64,000 bases of DNA, taken from positions 1 through 64,000 of the forward strand of contig JAPOZO010000064.1 of the NCBI GenBank assembly GCA_026706025.1. Direction: 5' to 3'. Position numbers and translations under genes: made by a program. Each line of letters opens with the position of its first letter. Position 1 is the first letter of the stretch. Source of the stretch: Candidatus Poribacteria bacterium (lineage in GTDB: Bacteria; Poribacteria; WGA-4E; WGA-3G). Under the pieces are notes generated by a model. The model did not search any database. It had not been told where the DNA came from and saw only the letters and a list, made by a program, of their open reading frames with translations. Positions 2,907 to 53,127 of this stretch are shown in pieces.

Positions 2907-3272
2907 TTATAAGTTTTCAGGTATTATCTCCGATACACTACTTATCGCCACAGCAATAGATAGTTCGCTCTTTAAGCTCCAAGTTTCACATATAAGCGAG
3001 ACAACAACCATGCGTAAACCAAAGGGTTCAGACGGTTCAGCAAGAGTTGCTGTATGTAAAATATGTTTAGCAAATTCATCGCTGTTTTCATTAGCCACAC
3101 CGAAAGTGGTAGCAAAACCCTTAATCATTATTTCATACAACTTCTCTTTGGGAGTATCAAGCGAATTTAGATCACGCAAGGTTTCAAACTGTGCCAATGC
3201 TACTCTGGAAAATTCATTAATGAGCCACTTGTCTCGCTTTCTGCGTTCGTTCCATTTTGAAAAGTAAGACAT
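2907..3272 (-). CDS. Hypothetical protein (121 aa)
   Basis: I do not recognise this protein. It is soluble, begins with a basic aromatic stretch (SYFSKWNERRKRDKW) and is otherwise helix-rich. CGGAG sits seven bases before the ATG, which supports the start. The gene is preceded, 124 bp upstream on the same strand, by the structured leader RNA at 3396-3471. The plus-strand frame covering the same bases has no ribosome binding site and looks like a shadow. Confidence 0.6.
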   Translation of the reverse strand: MSYFSKWNERRKRDKWLINEFSRVALAQFETLRDLNSLDTPKEKLYEIMIKGFATTFGVANENSDEFAKHILHTATLAEPSEPFGLRMVVVSLICETWSLKSELSIAVAISSVSEIIPENL

Positions 3273-3395
3273 AATAGGTCTCCGATAAAAAAGGGAGAGG
3301 ATTCAACGATATAGCAAAATACAAAGTGATATGCCGCTGAATTTTATAATTTGATTGTAAGAAAATTAAAATGTATACGTCACTTCAGCACAAAC

Positions 3396-3471
3396 GCCAC
3401 TTTTCCGATTTCGGTCGGTTGGGGTAGGGACTGCCACAAGGTGAGGAAACCGAAATGCCGTACCAAATGAC
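3396..3471 (-). ncRNA. Structured pseudoknot leader RNA, copy 1
   Basis: Read on the minus strand, the element has an outer helix (3471-3465 with 3402-3396, using two G-U pairs), an inner helix (3464-3458 with 3429-3423, one mismatch) and an interleaved pseudoknot helix (3456-3449 with 3415-3408, 8 bp). The linker between the inner and pseudoknot strands reads CCAACCG. The outer helix pairs only on the minus strand, because the G-U pairs become mismatches on the plus strand. The hypothetical gene at 2907-3272 follows. No convincing promoter was found for this copy. Confidence 0.65.
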
Positions 3472-3511
3472 GTTCTAAGTACCATGCAATAAATGCAATT
3501 TTAAGTCGTTG

Positions 3512-3859
3512 TTAGAATCTTGTTACGATGTTTACAAAAGTCCAAACTATTATGATAGTTCCACCTATCATAAACTGGTTTCCCGGATTAGAACGGAGTA
3601 TGAGATTGATTATAGGCATACCGATCCAAGTACCAACACCAGCAACAAGGAGACCTATGAATCCAAACATCAAGAACCCATTAAGACAAGCAATGGGTAA
3701 TCCTAAGTACATGTAGATTTTCACAAATCGGTATCCACTTTTAGTCGTTGTCCACATTGGATTGTATAATGCATCTACTCCGTTTAGTGTATTATTGACT
3801 AATGAGCATGCCCCGCGATATGCAATGGCATGGACAATAATAAACACAGCTAAAGCCAT
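3512..3859 (-). CDS. Small integral membrane protein
   Basis: This 115-residue hydrophobic protein has about four membrane segments: residues 2-20, two adjacent segments around 50-87, and 95-113. No family is recognised. AAGGGA lies seven bases before the ATG. The structured RNA at 3926-4000 and its promoter sit immediately upstream. Another copy of that RNA follows the stop codon and precedes the next gene, so the two genes look like separate transcription units of the same design. Confidence 0.6.
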   Translation of the reverse strand: MALAVFIIVHAIAYRGACSLVNNTLNGVDALYNPMWTTTKSGYRFVKIYMYLGLPIACLNGFLMFGFIGLLVAGVGTWIGMPIINLILRSNPGNQFMIGGTIIIVWTFVNIVTRF

Positions 3860-3925
3860 GATATTCCCTTTGTATAAAGGTTATGTCCGTGCAAATTTAC
3901 TGGATTTCCACCACTTTAACAGCCC

Positions 3926-4000
3926 GTCACTTCCCGATGCTATTCGGTTAAGGTAGGGTCTGCCTCAAGTGAGACAGATAGCATAACCCTACCAAGTGAC
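3926..4000 (-). ncRNA. Structured pseudoknot leader RNA, copy 2
   Basis: On the minus strand the outer helix is GTCACTT (4000-3994) with AAGTGAC (3932-3926). The inner helix is GGTAGGG (3993-3987) with CCCTACC (3958-3952). The pseudoknot is ATGCTAT (3984-3978) with ATAGCAT (3943-3937). A local hairpin (3978-3971 with 3966-3959, loop ACTT) fills the middle and contains a U-G pair valid only on this strand. The linker is TTAACCGA, and CGGG joins the pseudoknot to the outer helix. The predicted transcript start is about three bases before the first helix. Confidence 0.75.
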
Positions 4001-4009
4001 GTTCTAAAT

Positions 4010-4038
4010 AGAATACAATTTATGCAAAAAAATGTCAA
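4010..4038 (-). promoter_or_regulatory. Promoter of leader RNA copy 2
   Basis: On the minus strand TTGACA (4038-4033) and TATTCT (4015-4010) are separated by exactly 17 bp. Transcription would start near 4003, a few bases before the outer helix of the RNA, and run into the membrane-protein gene at 3859. Confidence 0.75.
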
Positions 4039-4252
4039 ATTTCATTTGTAATACTAAAATTAACCAATCCAAAAACGACTAATTGCGATCTTTTTAGATG
4101 ATTTCGGGATAACACTGGAAAAACTTACCCCCCAAAAAACCTGCTTAATCTTTTACTCTCTGATATACTATTCTAACCAGTTTTCGGTGGCATTACAAGG
4201 AATCGGGTACCTATCCTGTTTCTGCTGCCCCTCCACCATGGTAAGTGTATAA

Positions 4253-6729: not shown

Positions 6730-7278
6730 CTATTTTTGAATCAACATTTTACGTGTCTCGGTAAAGTTGCCTGCCGTCAATGTATAAAAATAGACACCAC
6801 TCGCCACAACTTCGCCGACCTCATTTTTGCCATCCCAATATGCCGCACGGCTCCGACTCTCATAGAGACCGGCAACTTGATGTCCTAACGCCAGCGTCCG
6901 AACCAAGACACCATTTGTAGCATAGATATGCCCCGTCACATCTACAGGTTCCGAAAGGCGGTACGGTATCCATGTTTCAGGGTTGAACGGGTTCGGATAG
7001 TTCGGCAGTAACGCTGTCTCTTCGGGGAGCATCAATGCCAGAAGTCGTCGGAGATTCTCTATGCCGTGTCGGAATGCAAGCGATCCGTCATTTTCAGCTA
7101 TCAGATCGAGAACATTCGTAATCCCATCGGTATTCACATCCCAAGCCGGGTAGGCGCGTTCTTCATCTTTAGTCACGTGGATACCGAAAATGAGTTGTCC
7201 CGGTGCGATCAACCCTGTAACCACATCTTCAATATCTGTACCATTAAAGTTCGCAATAAGTAGTTTTGGACTTGGAAA
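6730..7278 (-). pseudogene. C-terminal fragment of a secreted sorting-domain protein
   Basis: The frame is open from 7278 with no usable start. It encodes LLIANFNGTDIEDV, a dockerin-like DVNTDGITNVLDLI segment and a linker. It then carries the full C-terminal sorting module (PNYPNPFNPETWIPYRLSE ... GVYFYTLTAG ... MLIQK). The upstream part of the gene has been lost or moved: its first 20 bases (7250-7269) recur at 8470-8489, next to a fragment of another secreted protein. Confidence 0.7.
7250..7269. repeat. 20-bp direct repeat, copy a
   Basis: TTCGCAATAAGTAGTTTTGG is identical at 7250-7269 and 8470-8489, same orientation. Each copy borders a fragment of a secreted-protein gene on the minus strand. 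It may be a remnant of a duplicated coding segment (KLLIAN) or mark a recombination junction. Confidence 0.7.
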
Positions 7279-9779: not shown

Positions 9780-12467
9780 TTAAGACTTAATACGTAAATC
9801 CTGCGCGCTGTCAACAACTTCGTAATCGACACCGAGTGCCTCCCTGAAATGTCGCTTACCACATTCAATTTTCCTGCGCTCATCCGAACGTAAATCGTCA
9901 AGATTTGTTGTTCCCTTTGTCTCACGCACCAGGTATAACCTCTGGCCCTCATCATCAGGATAATCCACAACGATAGCCCAATCGGGGTTATATGTTCCAA
10001 TCGGCGTAGGAACTTTGAAGAAAGCTGGGAGTTTCATATAAAATTTCACAAAGTTAAGTTTCTCTAAGCCTTCAACAAATTCTTTCTCAACTTCCGAATC
10101 AAATATCACTTTCTCATAGAGTGACCGTTTTGCTGGAATGAGGTGATTTTCCCAACTATCTATTTCTATCTCAAATTGACACATCTCATAGCACTCACCA
10201 ATCTTTTCGTATCTTATCCCGTCTACCAACTGGTCGGTGAGTTTTTCTTTGATAACACGAACCGCAACGGAAGCAAATTCGTGGGGGTTGTCCAGCACTG
10301 CTTGCTGATTTCTTTGGATGCGACTGAAAATCTTAAGAAGCGTTTTCTTTGTCAGACGCGTCGGGGGCGTTGTGTTCTCCAGTAGGTGTGTCATCATATC
10401 AACTAAATTTGGCAACGGGTAGCGTCCTGCTAAGTCTATCATAGTTTTAGCGCCACTCATTTGTAAGGCTGAAAAGGTTTCTTGCTCGTCAAGTTGAACG
10501 AGTGCTTTCGTTGCTGTAATACGTGGCGGACGGATTTCAGACTCTTCTAAGGCTTCAACAACCTTGTCAACGAGCAAATCTGTATCCACATGAACAGCAT
10601 AGCGGGTTTTGTGCTTGATACGTTCCCACAATTCTTTGAACTCCGGCTTCATTATGTACGCCTTCTTTAACTTGGAAACGCCTCGTTTTCGTTTGTCAAC
10701 GGGAGCCGGCGGCAACTCTTGATCGCTGTATGCCTCTTGCATTTCCGTTTGGAGGCTATCCACATAACTTGCGTAACTCTCATTTGCGACAACGGTAAGA
10801 ACATTCACCCGTGTGTCATAAACACGGTTCCCAGACTGATCAACTGCTAACCGAATACCACGCCCGATTTCCTGTCGTTTCTTCATTTCAGAAGCCGTCT
10901 GGTTTAAGGGGCATATCTGAAACACGTTAGGACTATCCCATCCCTCTCGAAGTGCAGAGTGTGAGAAAATAAAACATGTCGGTTCATCAAAGGATAACAA
11001 TCGCTCCTTATCTCTCATAATCAAGTCGTAAGCCTCAACATCTTTCTTTGCCTCACCGGTGCTGCTATCCTCGTAAATAATTTCCCCGCTTCTTGTTTGC
11101 CGCTTAGCAAAGTAAGCGGCTTGCACACTTTCAACGTCTACGTCTCTCCAACCCGTGTATTTTTGTTTTAGCTTGTTAAAACTTTTTTTGAACAAACGAC
11201 GAATTACACCTGTTTCGAGGGCATAATTATCAACACGGTCTATAAAAAAGAGTGATAAAACCTTAATGCCAAGAGGCTTAAGACGCTCTTGCTTACGGAA
11301 ATGTTCCTCTATCGTGAGATGGATCTGTGTTTCAAAGATCGCCTCTTTATCCTCGCCCTTTGACTCGCCTCGTTCAACTTCAACGCCATTAGTAAACCGA
11401 ACAAAATCACTGAACAGATTTATTTCTTCAACAATGTAACCGTTATATTCTGGTCGGTTTGTTTCTTCAGAGAGGTTGTCCCCCGGCTTCACCGTTATGG
11501 ATTGCTCCTTTATTGTTCCATCACGCATGAGTTTATGAACGGATAACCGAGCCGTTAGGCTATTCTTTCTGCTTTGAATGTTGTTCACTCGGATAAGGGG
11601 TTGATTAACGTCATCTTCCTGTATAACTCCGTCAACCTCTATCCGTTTGACTAACCCTTGCCTATATGCTTCAGCAGGTGTTAGACGATAAACCATGTTG
11701 TATGAAACTCGATGTGTTGCACTATAACGTAGCGTAAAGAGTGGATCAAGTGCTGCGAGTGCCCTAACGCGTAATTCACTGACCATATTCTGCGGTTCGT
11801 CAAGAATTAATATCGGTCGAGTTGCCTGCACAAGGTGAATGGGGGTCTCTCCCTGTAAACGGTCAGTAGTCTGGCGAATGATATTTGATGCCTTATTAAA
11901 AGAGTCAATCGTCATCACCATAATTTCTACGCTATCTGAAAGTGCAAACTGGCGCACTTGTGCCGGATACGCGGAATCGTAGGCATAGTAGCGATAGGGC
12001 GTATTATCATAAAGTCTGCAAAGGTGATCTTGGGTAATCTCCAACGTTTTCAGTACACCTTCGCGGACAGCAACTGAAGGAACGACAACAATGAATTTCT
12101 TCAAGCCGTAAAAGCGAAAGAGTTCCAGTATAGTTCGCAGGTAGATATAGGTTTTGCCAGTTCCAGTTTCCATTTCAACGGAAAAATTAGGAAAGCAAAC
12201 GGTCTTGTCGCCAGTAGCTGTAACTATTTTTTCCTCAATATACTCAATTTCCACATCCTCATCTAAATTATTTTCTGCTTGTACCGATTTTAGGTTACTT
12301 AACAAGGCTTCATCGTCCAAATCTATACAATTCGGCACAGCAGCAAACAGCGTTCCGTTCTCGAACTGTAATTCAACTTCAACACGGGATTGTCCCTTTA
12401 ACAGGTTCGTCACGGATTCTATTGCCTTGAGTTGATAATCCTGATTCGCTTCAAATTTAAATTTCAT
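9780..12467 (-). CDS. res: Type III restriction enzyme, Res subunit
   Basis: This is an 895-residue superfamily 2 DNA translocase/nuclease. Walker A is ETGTGKT at residues 100-106, and the DEAD-like box is DEPQ (~222). Motifs around SALREGWDSPNVFQ and EIGRGIRLAVDQ correspond to helicase motifs V and VI. The C-terminus holds a PD-(D/E)xK nuclease site (YNPDWAIVV ... RETKG). With Mod it should cut DNA lacking methylation. The start overlaps the stop of the preceding gene by four bases (ATGA), indicating coupling in a three-gene operon. Confidence 0.92.
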   Translation of the reverse strand: MKFKFEANQDYQLKAIESVTNLLKGQSRVEVELQFENGTLFAAVPNCIDLDDEALLSNLKSVQAENNLDEDVEIEYIEEKIVTATGDKTVCFPNFSVEMETGTGKTYIYLRTILELFRFYGLKKFIVVVPSVAVREGVLKTLEITQDHLCRLYDNTPYRYYAYDSAYPAQVRQFALSDSVEIMVMTIDSFNKASNIIRQTTDRLQGETPIHLVQATRPILILDEPQNMVSELRVRALAALDPLFTLRYSATHRVSYNMVYRLTPAEAYRQGLVKRIEVDGVIQEDDVNQPLIRVNNIQSRKNSLTARLSVHKLMRDGTIKEQSITVKPGDNLSEETNRPEYNGYIVEEINLFSDFVRFTNGVEVERGESKGEDKEAIFETQIHLTIEEHFRKQERLKPLGIKVLSLFFIDRVDNYALETGVIRRLFKKSFNKLKQKYTGWRDVDVESVQAAYFAKRQTRSGEIIYEDSSTGEAKKDVEAYDLIMRDKERLLSFDEPTCFIFSHSALREGWDSPNVFQICPLNQTASEMKKRQEIGRGIRLAVDQSGNRVYDTRVNVLTVVANESYASYVDSLQTEMQEAYSDQELPPAPVDKRKRGVSKLKKAYIMKPEFKELWERIKHKTRYAVHVDTDLLVDKVVEALEESEIRPPRITATKALVQLDEQETFSALQMSGAKTMIDLAGRYPLPNLVDMMTHLLENTTPPTRLTKKTLLKIFSRIQRNQQAVLDNPHEFASVAVRVIKEKLTDQLVDGIRYEKIGECYEMCQFEIEIDSWENHLIPAKRSLYEKVIFDSEVEKEFVEGLEKLNFVKFYMKLPAFFKVPTPIGTYNPDWAIVVDYPDDEGQRLYLVRETKGTTNLDDLRSDERRKIECGKRHFREALGVDYEVVDSAQDLRIKS

Positions 12468-13473: not shown

Positions 13474-15330
13474 TCAGATAATTTTCAAACGACCTTGCAA
13501 GGCTAAATTCGCTTTCTGTCCGTCATTTAGCGCGACATCACGGCAAATAAAGAGATCTTGTATATCAAGATTCAGTTCTTTAGAAATCCCGGGATCAATC
13601 GTGTCATCTAAGCATATTTTGAAAGTTTGCTCTTTGTCAAAATCGGTCACACTATAAACGGTGTTCACGCAGATATTTTCCAGAAGTTCAATACGACAAT
13701 TTAAACCATAGCCTTCCGTTATAGCAATTTCATAAATGACATCTTCTACACTCCAATCGTCTACCAAAGGGTCATTAAACAGAGCCATTTTTTGGGTATA
13801 TGCATCAAAATCCTTTTCGTCGCAGCCCTGCCATGAACGATAATTGGAAGGTGATAGTTTGAACATTTTGACTCCGATTTGATTAGATGCTTCATCATGA
13901 TCGTCTTTCTGTTGTATCCTCGTAATAGCGCGTCGAATACGTTCCTTGCCAATATCAGCAACACTGGATAAGATAGGACCATCTTCCAATTTTTTTGGCG
14001 GTTCCAGTGGTTCGGGCAATTGAACGCAAATAAACCTTCTATTACCTCCATCTTCTCGATTCAAGTCTAATACGGCATCTGCTGTCGTACAAGATCCAGC
14101 AAAAAAATCAAGAACAATATCTCCATCGGAAGGTGATGTTGAGAGTTGTAATATCTGCTTTATCAAGGTGGTCGGTTTAGGATTATCGAAAATCCCACCG
14201 CCAAGAAGAGCCTTTAATTCATTATTCGCCTCATGGGTATTTCCGACCTCATCATTTAACCATATAGTGACAGGTGTAATTCCAGACTTAACCTCGGAGA
14301 GGTAACTTTTCTTAGACGGTGTAGATTTCCCTTCTTTACCAAACCAAATCTCATTATTTGCATCAAGTTCATCAAGCGTTTCCCTTGAATAGCGTGGAAA
14401 TCTTCCGGGAGGGGGCGACCAAACAACACCATTCTTAAATGTATATTTAAAAAGCGATTGTTTTTTTCCGCTTTTTGCGTGAAGCGGCGTCGCTTTCCAT
14501 ACGCCTCTTGGATCATTATCGGGATTCGAGTAACTTACTTTTTGGTCATCAGTGCGGGGCAATAAATTAAGCTTAAGTTTTTCTTTGTTGCGCGCGAAAA
14601 CCAAGATATAATCATGGTTATTCGAGAACCATTTTGCATCGTTACTCCTTGTATACTTCTTTTGCCAAATGATGCTTGAGATAAAATTCTCTTCTCCAAA
14701 AACTTCGTTCATTAACATCCGTAGATTATGCACTTCATGGTCGTCAATACTGACAAAAATTAAACCGTCATCGCGCAGCAACTGTTTCGCTGTAAATAAA
14801 CGAGGATGCATCATCGAAAGCCAGTCTGAATGGTAACGTCCGTTCGTTTCAGCGTTATTAGTAAGCAAATTGCCATCTGCGTCTTTTTGTCCAGTAAGTT
14901 GATAATAGGTATCCATTGGACTCCTATAATTATCAGGATAAACAAACTCTTTACCAGTGTTATAGGGCGGATCAATGTAAATTACCTTGATGCGACGATC
15001 ATAAGGCTTACATAGCAATTTCAATACTTCCAAATTTTCGCCTTCAATAAAAAGGTTCCGCGTCTCATCAAAATTTACAGATTCCTGTTGCATCGGAATC
15101 AAAGTTGAAGAAGAAGGAACTCGAAGCATACGTATTGCATCACGTTTTCCTGCCCATGTAAAATTATAGCGTTCAAATTCGTCCTCCACAACCTCTCCTA
15201 AGACCTCACGGAGTTTCTGAAAGTCTACCTTACCTTCAGTAAAACACTCTGGAAACAACTCTTTTAGGTCTTCCACCCGTTCATCTAATGCAGATGTTGT
15301 AAATTTTTCAACCTTTTCTGGTTTTGCCAT
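13474..15330 (-). CDS. mod: Type III DNA methyltransferase, Mod subunit
   Basis: This 618-residue N6-adenine methyltransferase has DPPY at 120-123 followed by NTGKEFVYPDNY. The AdoMet-binding motif LDFFAGSCTTADA lies around residue 410, giving the DPPY-before-FxG order of the beta class used by type III Mod. The N-terminal ~90 residues and the central variable region would contain the target recognition part. GGGAG lies seven bases before the ATG. The structured leader RNA at 15436-15514 and its promoter lie just upstream, so the whole mod-res operon is likely expressed through that leader. Confidence 0.93.
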   Translation of the reverse strand: MAKPEKVEKFTTSALDERVEDLKELFPECFTEGKVDFQKLREVLGEVVEDEFERYNFTWAGKRDAIRMLRVPSSSTLIPMQQESVNFDETRNLFIEGENLEVLKLLCKPYDRRIKVIYIDPPYNTGKEFVYPDNYRSPMDTYYQLTGQKDADGNLLTNNAETNGRYHSDWLSMMHPRLFTAKQLLRDDGLIFVSIDDHEVHNLRMLMNEVFGEENFISSIIWQKKYTRSNDAKWFSNNHDYILVFARNKEKLKLNLLPRTDDQKVSYSNPDNDPRGVWKATPLHAKSGKKQSLFKYTFKNGVVWSPPPGRFPRYSRETLDELDANNEIWFGKEGKSTPSKKSYLSEVKSGITPVTIWLNDEVGNTHEANNELKALLGGGIFDNPKPTTLIKQILQLSTSPSDGDIVLDFFAGSCTTADAVLDLNREDGGNRRFICVQLPEPLEPPKKLEDGPILSSVADIGKERIRRAITRIQQKDDHDEASNQIGVKMFKLSPSNYRSWQGCDEKDFDAYTQKMALFNDPLVDDWSVEDVIYEIAITEGYGLNCRIELLENICVNTVYSVTDFDKEQTFKICLDDTIDPGISKELNLDIQDLFICRDVALNDGQKANLALQGRLKII

Positions 15331-15435
15331 AGAAAACTCCCTTTTAAACTAATGCCTTGTGAAACCCAATGGCATTTTAACCAAAACACTTCGGTCATTT
15401 TTTATTGAAAAGCAAATTTATTGGATTTACCAGCC

Positions 15436-15514
15436 CAGTCCTTTATCCATCCACCACGGTTGGAGGGTGGCAGAATCGGAATGGGTCCGATTCGTGGTGG
15501 TGCCACCCGAACTG
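15436..15514 (-). ncRNA. Structured pseudoknot leader RNA, copy 3 (upstream of mod)
   Basis: On the minus strand the helices are: outer CAGTTC (15514-15509) with GGACTG (15441-15436); inner GGGTGGCA (15508-15501) with TGCCACCC (15472-15465); pseudoknot CCACCAC (15500-15494) with GTGGTGG (15457-15451); and a central hairpin GAATCGG/CCGATTC with a 7-base loop. The linker reads TCCAACC. Its 3' flank (AAATCCAATAAATTTGC) matches the flank of copy 2 at 16 of 17 bases. It is more divergent than the others but has the same topology. Confidence 0.7.
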
Positions 15515-15522
15515 GTTTGAAT

Positions 15523-15551
15523 AGTATAACATATAGGACGAGACATTGCAA
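15523..15551 (-). promoter_or_regulatory. Promoter of the mod-res operon
   Basis: On the minus strand TTGCAA (15551-15546) and TATACT (15528-15523) are 17 bp apart. The expected start near 15516 is two bases before the outer helix of the leader RNA. Confidence 0.7.
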
Positions 15552-16779: not shown

Positions 16780-17144
16780 ATATATTTTAATACCTATACA
16801 AAATATGTGCAACAAAAAAACAAAAGAATGTCCGAGTATGCAAGTTTTGCATGACGCAACGCCAAAAATGCATCTATCAATAGCACAAACCCGCCAAGAA
16901 TGGCATAAAAACTTTCCATAATATGTAAAATCTAAAAACTGTACCGATGGCAGGACACTGCCGCGAGTTAGACATATTTTGGTTGTTAATTAAATTTTTT
17001 ATTGTTAAACAACAAAAAAACAAAAAATTTCACGCGTCTAAGAAAGTGTTTCATCCCTAATTGTTGTTTAACCATTTTAATATATACTCCTTTAATTGTT
17101 TTAAGGGTGCCACGAACCCATGCTACATCTGTGTTTGTAGATTT

Positions 17145-17298
17145 AAACATGAACGTTTATGGGGAGAAACATGAACGTTTATGGGGAGAAACATGAACGT
17201 TTATGGGGAGAAACATGAACGTTTATGGGGAGAAACATGAACGTTTATGGGGAGAAACATGAACGTTTATGGGGAGAAACATGAACGTTTATGGGGAG
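17145..17298 (+). repeat. Seven perfect 22-bp iterons (replication origin)
   Basis: The 22-bp unit AAACATGAACGTTTATGGGG plus AG is repeated seven times without gap or mismatch. Tandem 22-bp iterons next to a Rep_3-type gene are the classical initiator binding sites of theta-replicating plasmids. Seven identical copies imply recent amplification or strong homogenisation. The centre GAACGTTT holds a short partial palindrome. Confidence 0.92.
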
Positions 17299-17370
17299 CA
17301 GCCTAAGAACCTATGATATTACTTGTGGATGCGGCTTATAGCGATACAGAAAATACAGATTTTCGACTTT

Positions 17371-17413
17371 AAAATGAGAGTTTATGGGATTAAATATGAA
17401 CGTTTATGGGGTT
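17371..17413 (+). repeat. Two degenerate iterons between origin and rep
   Basis: AAAATGAGAGTTTATGGGATT (17371-17391) and a unit at 17392-17413 keep the GAACGTTTATGGG core of the iterons with changes at the ends. Their position closer to rep fits the autoregulatory half-sites used by many iteron plasmids, which is inference. Confidence 0.75.
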
Positions 17414-17631
17414 AAATATGAAAAATTATATTGATAAAGGTTCATATTAATTGTATACTAACATAAGTTCCATAATAAAAATGCGAGTGTAGATATAAGT
17501 TAGGTTGAGCCAAACATCAAACCAACGAATGCTTATGCGTATTTGGAGTTAATGCCCTACGACTCCTAAAGTCTTATATGGAACTTACTTTATGCTATGT
17601 AACATATATTCCAAACGTAGAGGGAGGTCTC

Positions 17632-37037: not shown

Positions 37038-38621
37038 TCACTCAGCAGTTGTATAGACCGTGCCGTTCTGAAATCCGAAAGACGCACCCCATCCACTATC
37101 CCAAATCTCTTTGTGTCGATAAGCGTCGATAAACAGCAGATTCTCACCGGCATTGAGTGTGACAGGCACAGCCGTTACGTAATCGATTCCCTTCAGGTAA
37201 TTGGAATTTCTGTAAACCCTCGTCCCGTTGAGCCAGACATCCACCAGAAATCCAGAGATATACATCCGCGTCCGCTGCGGTTTTTCCGAGTGGATGGACA
37301 CCACACCATAAACGAGCAGGTCGTATATCGCCAAGTCGTAGCCACTCCCGATAATGTCGCGGGCGATAGTGTCGAGGTTGGCTGGATCTGCTGCCGTGAG
37401 TGGTGCAGGTGTCCAAACGCTGTTTCCAAATTGCGTCACTTGCGTCCCGGCACTTGCACCGTTGACGGCAATATGGGCTTCAAAAATATCGTGCTTAGAG
37501 GGTGCCTCATCTAATTCGGGGATATCCGTCCCTGGCATTTCATCTCGTATCGTTGGCAGAATCAACCAGATCCACCCGTCCTCTATCTGAGGTCCGGGGG
37601 TCTGAAAAGCCGGATTGTCCGGAAAATAGACAACTGTCCCTTGCTCCATTAGCCTGTCAAGCGTTTGAATATCCGAGATCGTGTTGTGCCCGAGATTGAG
37701 AGTCTGCAGGTTTTTGAGGTTCGCCAAGGGTGATATATCCGAGATCGTGTTGTGCTGGAGCTCAAGGATATATAGGTTTGTGAGGTATACTAACGGCGAT
37801 ATATCTGAGATCGTGTTGTGCTGGAGATGCAGGTTAAATACGTCTATTGCAAATTCGATGCCGCGTAGGTCGGTAATTTCCCTCCCCTGTGCCCGAATAT
37901 GCGATAGGTAAACCACGTTTTCTATCTCCGATTCCATCTCCGCCCGCGTGATGGTCTCCCCCGGTGGCTTACTGAGTGCTTCGGCAATCACGGCGCGTAG
38001 GTTCGGATCCGGGATGTCAACGACGTGCTGAGGTCCGAGGGTCTGAAAAGCCGGATTGCCCGAAAAATAGACAACTGTCCCTTGCTCCATTAGCCTTTCA
38101 AGCGTTTGAATATCCGAGATCGTGTTATGACGGCAATTGAGTTTCTTCAGGTTTTTGAGGTTCGCCAAGGGTGATATATCCGAAATCGAGTTGCGCGGGA
38201 GAACCAGTATAAGTAGATTTTTGAGGTTTGCTAACGGCGATATATTCGAGATAAAGTTGCCACTGAGAAACAGAGTTCTCAGGTGCGTTAGACGTGCCAA
38301 GGGCGATATATCTGATATAGTGTTGTTAAAAAGAGTCAGCTCTTTGAGGTTTATTGCGAACTCAGTGCCGCGTAGGTTGGTAATCTCCATGCCCGGTGCC
38401 TTAAGTTCATGCAACGTTTCCATCTCCGCCCGCGTGATGGTCTCCTCCGGTGCCTTCTGGAGTGCTTCGGCAATCGCGGCGCGGAGGTTCGGATCCGGGA
38501 TGTCAACGCCTTTCGCTTTGTGTTTTTCGTAGTGTATGTAAAGCAGAGAACCTGCAGCACACAATCCCAAAAACGCTAACAGACCTATAGAGCTGCTGTT
38601 TTTGAAAATGTCTGGAAACAT
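37038..38621 (-). CDS. LRR protein A with N-terminal membrane anchor
   Basis: This 527-residue protein has an uncleaved membrane segment (IGLLAFLGLCAAGSLLYIHY). Two LRR blocks each start with DIPDPNLRA, followed by 22-residue repeats of the type ISDISPLANLKNLxxL. The C-terminal ~180 residues form a beta-sandwich (VYGVVSIHSEKPQRTRMYIS and VDVWLNGTRVYRNSNYLKG), also present in the giant protein at 27860. It is a tandem paralogue of protein B. GGAG lies nine bases before the ATG, one base after the stop of an upstream gene scrap. Probably displayed in the periplasm or at the surface. Confidence 0.85.
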   Translation of the reverse strand: MFPDIFKNSSSIGLLAFLGLCAAGSLLYIHYEKHKAKGVDIPDPNLRAAIAEALQKAPEETITRAEMETLHELKAPGMEITNLRGTEFAINLKELTLFNNTISDISPLARLTHLRTLFLSGNFISNISPLANLKNLLILVLPRNSISDISPLANLKNLKKLNCRHNTISDIQTLERLMEQGTVVYFSGNPAFQTLGPQHVVDIPDPNLRAVIAEALSKPPGETITRAEMESEIENVVYLSHIRAQGREITDLRGIEFAIDVFNLHLQHNTISDISPLVYLTNLYILELQHNTISDISPLANLKNLQTLNLGHNTISDIQTLDRLMEQGTVVYFPDNPAFQTPGPQIEDGWIWLILPTIRDEMPGTDIPELDEAPSKHDIFEAHIAVNGASAGTQVTQFGNSVWTPAPLTAADPANLDTIARDIIGSGYDLAIYDLLVYGVVSIHSEKPQRTRMYISGFLVDVWLNGTRVYRNSNYLKGIDYVTAVPVTLNAGENLLFIDAYRHKEIWDSGWGASFGFQNGTVYTTAE

Positions 38622-38622
38622 C

Positions 38623-38769
38623 TTATTTTTCTCCGTCCGTCAAATAGGTTTGGGGTATCTTCAGTTCGCCGGTAATGATTTTGGCTTTCGCGGCTTTTTG
38701 GACCGCCATTGGCACGTTCTGCTTCAACGCCGGATTGTAGACAAAGGTGATGGCTTCATCGGTTGCCAT
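38623..38769 (-). pseudogene. C-terminal tail of a BMP-like substrate-binding protein
   Basis: The minus strand encodes FVYNPALKQNVPMAVQKAAK followed by [19 protein letters not shown] and a stop one base before the LRR A start. It resembles the last ~45 residues of BMP/Med-type ABC-transporter binding proteins. The bulk of the gene is missing. Its last 19 codons are also found upstream of LRR B. Confidence 0.5.
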
Positions 38770-38819
38770 ATCCGTTCTGTTCGTTTTTCTCTAAAGGTCA
38801 GGAGCGATAGGCGAAACGT

Positions 38820-40223
38820 TCACTTGGCAGTTGTATAGACCGTGCCGTCCTGAAATCCGAAAGACGCACCCCAGCGACTGTTTATGGTGTCTCGATAAGC
38901 GTTGATAAACAGCAGATTCTCACCGGCATTGAGTGTGACAGGCACAGCCGTTACGTAATCGATTCCCTTCAGGTAATTGGAATTTCTGTAAACCCTCGTC
39001 CCGTTGAGCCAGACCTGGACAGTACATCCAGAGATATACACCCGCGTCTGCTGCGGGGTTTTCGACTGGATAGACACCACACCATAGACGACCAGGGGGT
39101 CGTCGCTATCTGTCTCCAAGTTGTAGTCATTCACGATGGCGTTAAGATTGTCTGGATCCGCTGCCGTGAGTGGTGCAGGTGTCCAGACGCTGTTTCCAAA
39201 TTGCGTCTCGGCAGTCGCACCCTTGACGGCAACATCGGTTTCTTTCACCGCTCCATCACTAACTTCTTTAAGAAAATCTCGCCCAGAGTGCGCCGCATCG
39301 GAACCATGGTTTACATTCGTTGCTGGCACAATAAGCCAGACCCACCCGTCTTCTATCTGAGTCCCGGGGGTCTGAAAAATAGGATTCCCCGAAAAATAGA
39401 TAACTGTTCCTTGCTCTATAAGCCTTTCAAGCGTTTGAATATCCGAGATCGTGTTGTGCCGGAGATCGAGAGTCTGCAGGTTTTTGAGGTTCGCCAAGGG
39501 CGATATATCTGAGATCGTGTTGTGCTGGAGATGCAAACTTCTTAGGTGCGTTAGACCTGCCAAGGGTGATATATCCGAGATCGCGTTGCCAGCGAGAGAC
39601 AGCATACCCACGTCGAGGTTTGCCAACGCTGATATATCTGAGATCTTGTTTCCATTGAGTTCCAGCATGAGCAATGGGGTTGTGCGGTTTGCCAAGGGCG
39701 ATATATCCGAGATCGCGTTGATGCCGAGAGACAACGTTCTCAGGTGCGTTAGACTTACCACTGGCGATATATCCGTGATGTTGTTGGACCAGAGGTACAG
39801 ATATTTGAGGTTTATTGCGAACTCAAGTCCGCATAAGTCGGTAATCGCTGTGCCCTGTGCCTCAAACCCACCGAACTCCGCGTCCAGTATCCACTCCCCG
39901 CCCGATCCCTGAAGTTCACCGAACACCCCGCCCAGAGCCCGAAGTTCAGCCAACGTTTCCATCTCCGTCCGCGTGATGGTCTCCTCCGGTGCCTTCTGGA
40001 GTGCTTCGGCAATCGCGGCGCGGAGGTTCGGATCCGGGATGTCAACGACGTGGTCAACGACTCCTGAGGTATCCCCCTCGCCTTCATAGTGGACTGATAT
40101 CTCCGGTATCTCGTTCCCTTTGTGTTTTTGGTGATGCATGTAAAGCAGAAAACCTGCAGCACACAATCCCAAAAACGCTAACAGACCTATAGAGCTGCTG
40201 TTTTTGAAAATGTCTGGAAACAT
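38820..40223 (-). CDS. LRR protein B with N-terminal membrane anchor
   Basis: This 467-residue tandem paralogue of LRR A has a nearly identical first 25 residues (membrane anchor) and C-terminal beta-sandwich. It carries a single LRR block with more repeats and an insertion after the anchor (EISVHYEGEGDTSGVVDHV). The pair arose by duplication that included ~50 bp of upstream sequence and the bases just after the stop (TGAACGTTTCGC follows both). Surface or periplasmic protein binding is plausible for such LRRs. Confidence 0.85.
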   Translation of the reverse strand: MFPDIFKNSSSIGLLAFLGLCAAGFLLYMHHQKHKGNEIPEISVHYEGEGDTSGVVDHVVDIPDPNLRAAIAEALQKAPEETITRTEMETLAELRALGGVFGELQGSGGEWILDAEFGGFEAQGTAITDLCGLEFAINLKYLYLWSNNITDISPVVSLTHLRTLSLGINAISDISPLANRTTPLLMLELNGNKISDISALANLDVGMLSLAGNAISDISPLAGLTHLRSLHLQHNTISDISPLANLKNLQTLDLRHNTISDIQTLERLIEQGTVIYFSGNPIFQTPGTQIEDGWVWLIVPATNVNHGSDAAHSGRDFLKEVSDGAVKETDVAVKGATAETQFGNSVWTPAPLTAADPDNLNAIVNDYNLETDSDDPLVVYGVVSIQSKTPQQTRVYISGCTVQVWLNGTRVYRNSNYLKGIDYVTAVPVTLNAGENLLFINAYRDTINSRWGASFGFQDGTVYTTAK

Positions 40224-40224
40224 C

Positions 40225-40370
40225 TTATTTTTCTCCGTCCGTCAAATAGGTTTGGGATATCTTCAGTTCGCCGATAATCCCGTTGAAAACAGCCCCATTT
40301 GCTAAAAGCGGTGTAATGTCTTTAAACAGAATACCGGGCTTCGGATAATCGGGGATCGTTCGGATAAACT
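40225..40370 (-). pseudogene. Adenine phosphoribosyltransferase start fused to a BMP-like tail
   Basis: Minus-strand translation gives [20 protein letters not shown] followed by LLANGAVF, the highly characteristic N-terminus of adenine phosphoribosyltransferase. It changes at NGIIGELKI into the tail also seen upstream of LRR A. The 5' side joins the aldehyde dehydrogenase fragment at a repeated CAGTTTATC, a likely microhomology junction. None of the pieces is a functional gene. Confidence 0.75.
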
Positions 40371-52681: not shown

Positions 52682-52710
52682 TTGACCCTTTCCGTCAGAA
52701 CGTGTATAAT
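52682..52710 (+). promoter_or_regulatory. Promoter of leader RNA copy 4
   Basis: TTGACC (52682-52687) and TATAAT (52705-52710) are 17 bp apart. The expected start (~52717) coincides with the first base pair of the structured RNA. Confidence 0.8.
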
Positions 52711-52715
52711 GTGAG

Positions 52716-52797
52716 AAGCATTGTTTAGTAGGGAATTCCATCTGCCTCGCTTGAGACTGTCCCTACCACTACCGAATGGAATCGGGAAACAATGCTT
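52716..52797 (+). ncRNA. Structured pseudoknot leader RNA, copy 4
   Basis: The outer helix is AAGCATTGTTT (52716-52726) with AAACAATGCTT (52787-52797), 11 bp perfect. The inner helix is GTAGGGA (52728-52734) with TCCCTAC (52760-52766). The pseudoknot is ATTCCAT (52735-52741) with ATGGAAT (52776-52782). The middle contains CTCGCTTGAG, as CTCACTTGAG in copy 2. The linker ends ACCGA, and CGGG joins pseudoknot and outer helix, as in copy 2. All helix sequences differ from those in copies 1-3. A winged-helix gene follows 49 bp later. Confidence 0.8.
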
Positions 52798-52845
52798 AAG
52801 TAAACAATGCAACCTCTAACTAAAAACACAAACAGAAACTCTGCT

Positions 52846-53127
52846 ATGATATTTAACGATTTACACGAGAAAGCACAATCCGCACTCGATGAATTAGATG
52901 AAGCGGTTTTAGAAGTATTCTCTCGAACCAACGAACCCTTATATCCGGGTGAAGTCAGTGCCAGACTCGGACTTCCACGATCGCTTGATCCAGACCTTCC
53001 GTATCAAACGATTCGGGATTCACTTTACCGTTTACAGGCTGATGGTAAACTTGAACGCGTCATACCTGATACCGATGATAGTGGTCGTCGAAAATGGCAA
53101 TTCACAGGCGCAGAAAAACAGGAATGA
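52846..53127 (+). CDS. Winged-helix protein upstream of cas6 remnant
   Basis: This 93-residue protein has a winged-helix layout: EAVLEVFSRTNEPLYPGEVS, ARLGLPRSLDPDLPYQTIRD, SLYRLQADGKLERV and a wing RRKWQF. An in-frame ATG at 52807 would add 13 residues, and neither start has a clear ribosome binding site. The stop overlaps the next start (ATGA). It is the first gene behind the leader RNA at 52716. Confidence 0.6.
   Translation: MIFNDLHEKAQSALDELDEAVLEVFSRTNEPLYPGEVSARLGLPRSLDPDLPYQTIRDSLYRLQADGKLERVIPDTDDSGRRKWQFTGAEKQE

Follow-up and report, generated by a model that had tools for sequence, protein, structure and literature searches.

The window, as we call the whole 64,000-nt stretch analysed here from a Candidatus Poribacteria contig, contains four sites (copies 1-4) of one structured RNA family. 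Copy 2, on the minus strand, is preceded by a terminal-inverted-repeat-like sequence (CGCAATTAGTCGTTTTTGGA, 4068-4087) and a promoter (4010-4038) composed of TTGACA (4038-4033), a 17-bp spacer and TATTCT (4015-4010). The predicted transcript 5′ end, about 2 nt or less from the predicted start, is the 5′ strand of the outer helix P1 (CGTCACTT, 3994-4001). The core (3931-3996, R1 score 77.9 bits), with covarying pairs, folds into P2 (3993-3986/3959-3952), P3 (3984-3978/3943-3937), P4 (3977-3971/3966-3960) and P5 (3947-3945/3936-3934). A first complement of the P1 strand, P1′ (AAGTGACG, 3925-3932), and a second, P1″ (AAGTGGTG, 3909-3916), then lead on to a 115-aa membrane-like ORF with no Pfam family (3512-3859, minus strand).

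Behind this ORF lies copy 1 (3378-3472, minus strand, R1 67.2 bits; P1 3472-3465, core 3467-3402, P1′ 3402-3395, P1″ 3385-3378), with a 121-aa ORF, also of no Pfam family, downstream (2907-3272, minus strand). Its promoter is weak and none is convincing, as the earlier note on this DNA had implied; copy 1 may be decayed. Copy 4 is on the plus strand (52719-52809, R1 83.6 bits; P1 52719-52726, core 52724-52788, P1′ 52787-52794, P1″ 52802-52809) behind a TTGACC-17-TATAAT promoter (52682-52710), and the first ATG of a 106-aa HTH-like ORF (52807-53127, plus strand) lies inside its P1″. Copy 3 (15429-15551, minus strand) is divergent and scored below both covariance models. It has TTGCAA (4/6; 15551-15546), a 17-bp spacer and TATACT (15528-15523), followed by P1 (15516-15509), P2 (15508-15501/15472-15465), P3 (15500-15494/15457-15451), P4 (15493-15487/15479-15473), P1′ (15441-15435) and P1″ (15434-15429). 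Perfect helices in this family order (7/7/6 bp plus an outer helix of at least 6) occurred in 0 of 300 shuffles, and copies 3 and 2 have a tail in common (AAATCCARTAAATTTGC). Copy 3 leads an N6/N4 DNA methylase (13474-15330, minus strand) that is followed by a ResIII-type restriction subunit (9780-12467), giving a type III restriction-modification system.

We aligned copies 1, 2 and 4 with three tandem copies from another contig of the same genome and built a first covariance model, leaving out the pseudoknot. This model matched seven places in the window's own genome and about 100 in relatives, and a second model placed the RNA in 52 of 85 Poribacteria genomes. About 150 occurrences are spread over this one phylum, ahead of genes that are mobile or accessory. 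When 84,980 genomes were scanned with a pattern, the hosts were likewise Candidatus Poribacteria, and matches outside the phylum were no more than chance would give (best model score there, 20.4 bits). The RNA is also present on some IMG/VR contigs, several of which have the same length as Poribacteria contigs. Rfam 15 matched no family across the whole window at gathering score; around copies 1 and 2, at E up to 5, it gave one 12.6-bit chance match off the elements, and eight loci searched with E-values as high as 0.5 gave no match. A literature search found no description of a Poribacteria riboswitch or leader RNA, or of a TnpB leader.

Besides the outer helix (P1), the fold has a second helix (P2), a pseudoknot of 7 bp (P3) and two hairpins: P4, whose stem is mostly 7 bp and whose loop is short, and the small P5, which encloses the P3 3′ strand. 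The nested helices described in the earlier note are thus present, but the core also holds the pseudoknot, and P1 has a second complement. The pseudoknot joins the 7 nt that bulge out between P2 and P4 to the small-hairpin loop (CCGA...TCGG); every sequence of the first alignment could form it, with two-sided changes in 5 of 7 pairs. Across 94 distinct sequences, 96.2% of core pair cells held standard pairs and 23 of 25 pairs, pseudoknot included, showed double changes; sliding the partners by 1-3 columns lowered pairing to 36-44%. This alignment was fitted to P2, P4 and P5 with the pseudoknot left out, yet P3 was 97.5% paired and all seven of its pairs covaried. The result is a structured, covarying 5′ leader domain such as riboswitches have. 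Paired parts hold their sequence (GGUAG/CUACC, CCG/CGG); strongly conserved unpaired bases are few, which is weak for an aptamer.

The earlier note had also proposed that sigma-70-like promoters with an exact 17-bp spacer place the transcript start within a few bases of the outer helix in copies 2-4. Both the promoters and this distance were confirmed, for starts that are predicted, and the arrangement is general: a sigma-70-type promoter (matching the 12-base consensus at 9 or more positions) stands at a fixed distance before P1 at 65 of 86 sites in the sense orientation and at 0 of 86 in the antisense mirror. The same note had read a strand bias from G-U deviations. Our hand count bore this out for copies 1-3, with three, one and one G-U pairs and not a single A-C. 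Copy 4 goes the other way, its deviations being A-C mismatches; with this copy and so few pairs, the four copies are too few for the claim. Family-wide the bias is solid, with 90 G-U against 14 A-C in the core of 44 sequences, 152 against 36 in that of 94, and 38 against 9 in the pseudoknot pairs, which lay outside the model. When Watson-Crick pairs alone were used to set the offsets, P1:P1′ gave 33 against 11 (P = 0.001) and P1:P1″ 23 against 6 (P = 0.002). The excess of G-U over A-C, together with a sense-only promoter at fixed distance, points to an RNA at the transcript start. With covariation added, the sequences support an RNA that acts from the predicted 5′ end, and we consider it very likely that the RNA family is genuine and sits at transcript starts.

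At most sites the P1 5′ strand has its second complement, P1″, usually 5-11 nt after P1′. Over 56 sites, P1″ pairing scored a mean of 13.2 of 16, against 7.1 for downstream sequences swapped in from sites with a different P1, and 86% of sites scored at least 10, against 22% of the swapped controls. P1″ covaries with P1: about 20 (21) P1 sequences are accompanied by a matching P1′ and P1″. P1:P1′ and P1:P1″ differed in energy by a mean of −0.2 kcal per mol (s.d. 2.9; 40 sites folded without the pseudoknot), an equality that arises partly because P1′ and P1″ are near-identical. In 13 TnpB leaders the start codon lies inside P1″, the P1′-P1″ spacer is Shine-Dalgarno-like in 12, and the bases just 5′ of AUG (AACT, AGCA, GGCA, AGCC) follow P1. 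Start-codon gating is not the whole story, because at most of 36 other sites P1″ opens a very short ORF or none. Tandem arrays have no evident P1″.

Taken together, the roughly 150 occurrences, the fold, the predicted start and the two partners of P1 suggest a previously undescribed type of gene-control element built into the transcript. Our preferred reading, at a probability of about 0.55, is that this structured RNA would act in cis, from the transcript 5′ end, as a strand-exchange switch. We infer that the first-transcribed P1 strand pairs alternately with P1′ and P1″: when P1:P1′ forms, the core would be closed and P1″ free, and when P1:P1″ forms, P1″ would be covered. In TnpB leaders, where AUG lies in P1″ and the Shine-Dalgarno-like sequence between P1′ and P1″, such an exchange would turn translation initiation on or off. 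In the remaining leaders, the exchange would control the downstream gene or a short upstream ORF. Candidate triggers are a ligand, a protein, an sRNA, temperature or folding order. The element would work like a riboswitch expression platform, and we do not file it as a riboswitch because no ligand is known. A broader version, which we hold only tentatively, is a new riboswitch-like class found only in Poribacteria and on their mobile elements. The first bases of the transcript would be its switching strand and would directly gate the TnpB start codon; the class would have been reused for phage, restriction-modification and GIY-YIG nuclease genes, and multi-copy array RNAs would act in trans.

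The genes downstream of the RNA encode TnpB, an EcoRI-type methylase, the type III methylase of copy 3, a GIY-YIG nuclease, DUF4268, phage Gp157 and VG64 proteins, trypsin/dockerin proteins and unknowns, and nothing common to these leader-linked genes points to a particular ligand. Nor does the RNA go with TnpB as a rule: five of six genomes searched have 14-66 TnpB genes and only few leaders. The window's own genome has 8 TnpB genes; four others (G005, G010, G018 and G064) have about 48-66 TnpB-type genes each.

Three loci (L075, L076 and L085) have near-identical copies of a MITE, about 225 nt long and bounded by 22-bp terminal inverted repeats (CGGAATTAGTCGTTTTGGACTT), that carries the promoter and a truncated RNA copy. 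An IS1595-type transposon in the window's own genome, with methylase-like cargo, has ends similar to those of this MITE. One locus of that genome (L195, C71:1500-5400) has an IS1595-type transposase and inverted repeats (CGCAATAAGTAGTTTTGGGA) about 3.2 kb apart, with a methyltransferase-like ORF and one further ORF as cargo; single ends related to these repeats lie at 7252 and 8472 of the window. Other RNA copies sit in nonautonomous IS605-type elements. In this subclass (L088, L089, L095, L097 and L108), a promoter and core are followed by P1″ directly adjacent to P1′ and by a conserved domain ending in a terminator-like hairpin (GGGCAG...CTGCCC-TTTTT), and the whole is probably an ncRNA of about 200 nt. 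Attenuation was not adopted as an explanation: in a non-systematic inspection of the leaders, such a hairpin was noted only in this subclass. Tandem arrays of 2-3 units adjoin or lie between ABC-permease genes in several species, with no evident cistron; their units are 87-96% identical, against 30-70% for most flanks. The earlier placement of the RNA in 5′ UTRs, for which the note proposed no mechanism, stands as to the transcript 5′ end but not for the arrays and IS605-borne copies, which are probably not mRNA leaders. On our preferred reading, mobile elements carried the RNA from place to place and accessory genes make use of it.

A role of the element as DNA, as a transposon end or single-stranded hairpin, would suit the copies within the MITE or IS605-type elements. 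We consider it extremely improbable, since G-U exceeds A-C on one strand, the promoter is found only on that strand and at a fixed distance, and both the inverted repeats and the hairpins of IS605 ends lie apart from it, further upstream; most copies, moreover, lie outside IS200/IS605 elements. A target for a trans-acting RNA-binding protein or sRNA, in which single-copy leaders would mark regulated mRNAs and the arrays would be a titrating sponge with CsrB-like logic, is unlikely. It fits the sequence conservation of the paired parts, the high identity of array units relative to their flanks and the use of one element by unrelated genes, but does not by itself explain a covarying P1″. Unlikely, too, is a constitutive 5′-end stabilizer or insulator that would guard mobile-gene mRNAs without switching. 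P1 does begin at the predicted first transcribed bases, four of five folded elements are very stable (z −3 to −5) and the genes lack a theme, yet such a device would need neither the pseudoknot nor a P1″ that covaries with P1.

HDV-like ribozymes have the helix order P1-P2-P3-P1′-P2′, a 3-bp P3 with L3, an unpaired catalytic C before the P2 3′ strand and no enclosing P1. The order P2-P3-P4-P2′-P3′ in the Poribacteria RNA is the same for the three pseudoknot helices, and tandem copies in a context of mobile elements and phage genes would also suit a small self-cleaving ribozyme. We judge this very unlikely, given the longer P4, the enclosing P1, the lack of an Rfam match at permissive E-values and, at the catalytic position, a CCG before P3′ that is paired in P5 with covariation. 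Type III toxin-antitoxin (ToxI-like) RNAs are tandem pseudoknotted units behind one promoter with a ToxN-like toxin gene directly after. Tandem pseudoknotted units behind one promoter are found here as well, but they are about 83 nt long, number only 1-3 and have no toxin gene alongside; the leader-linked ORFs scanned included no ToxN-like Pfam family, and no conserved cistron follows the arrays.

The strand-exchange reading has its closest general design in translational riboswitches with mutually exclusive helices (review PMC10907184; strand exchange PMC9756952). The Poribacteria RNA similarly has a 5′ leader, a pseudoknotted core closed by P1 and an alternative partner strand downstream, but it would exchange the first transcribed strand and has no known ligand, no gene theme and a core without an Rfam match. 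The IS200 tnpA 5′ RNA (PMC12594629) and the ISPpu9 tnp 5′-UTR (PMC8450116) are also structured 5′ RNAs on mobile-element genes, but each accompanies the transposase gene of one IS type, whereas ours is a covarying pseudoknotted family across TnpB, restriction-modification, phage and other genes. Poribacteria gain a well-supported structured RNA family. That unrelated accessory genes use it suggests that mobile elements can carry regulatory RNAs along as modules. Should the switch prove real, it would show how a leader can restrain the selfish RNA-guided nuclease that it precedes, and would offer a compact element of promoter, pseudoknot and two competing strands.

Several other features lie in the window. 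Dense ATGTTAAC-type repeats (1725-1810) directly precede genes for a ParA-type ATPase (1824-2456) and an RHH antitoxin-like protein (2302-2733); the 1725-2733 segment looks like a partition cassette. Seven or eight iteron-like 22-bp direct repeats (AAACATGAACGTTTATGGGGAG), with degenerate copies behind them, occupy 17123-17457. At 37112-40278, two neighbouring repeat-rich genes have long, highly similar blocks in common, suggesting a recent duplication.
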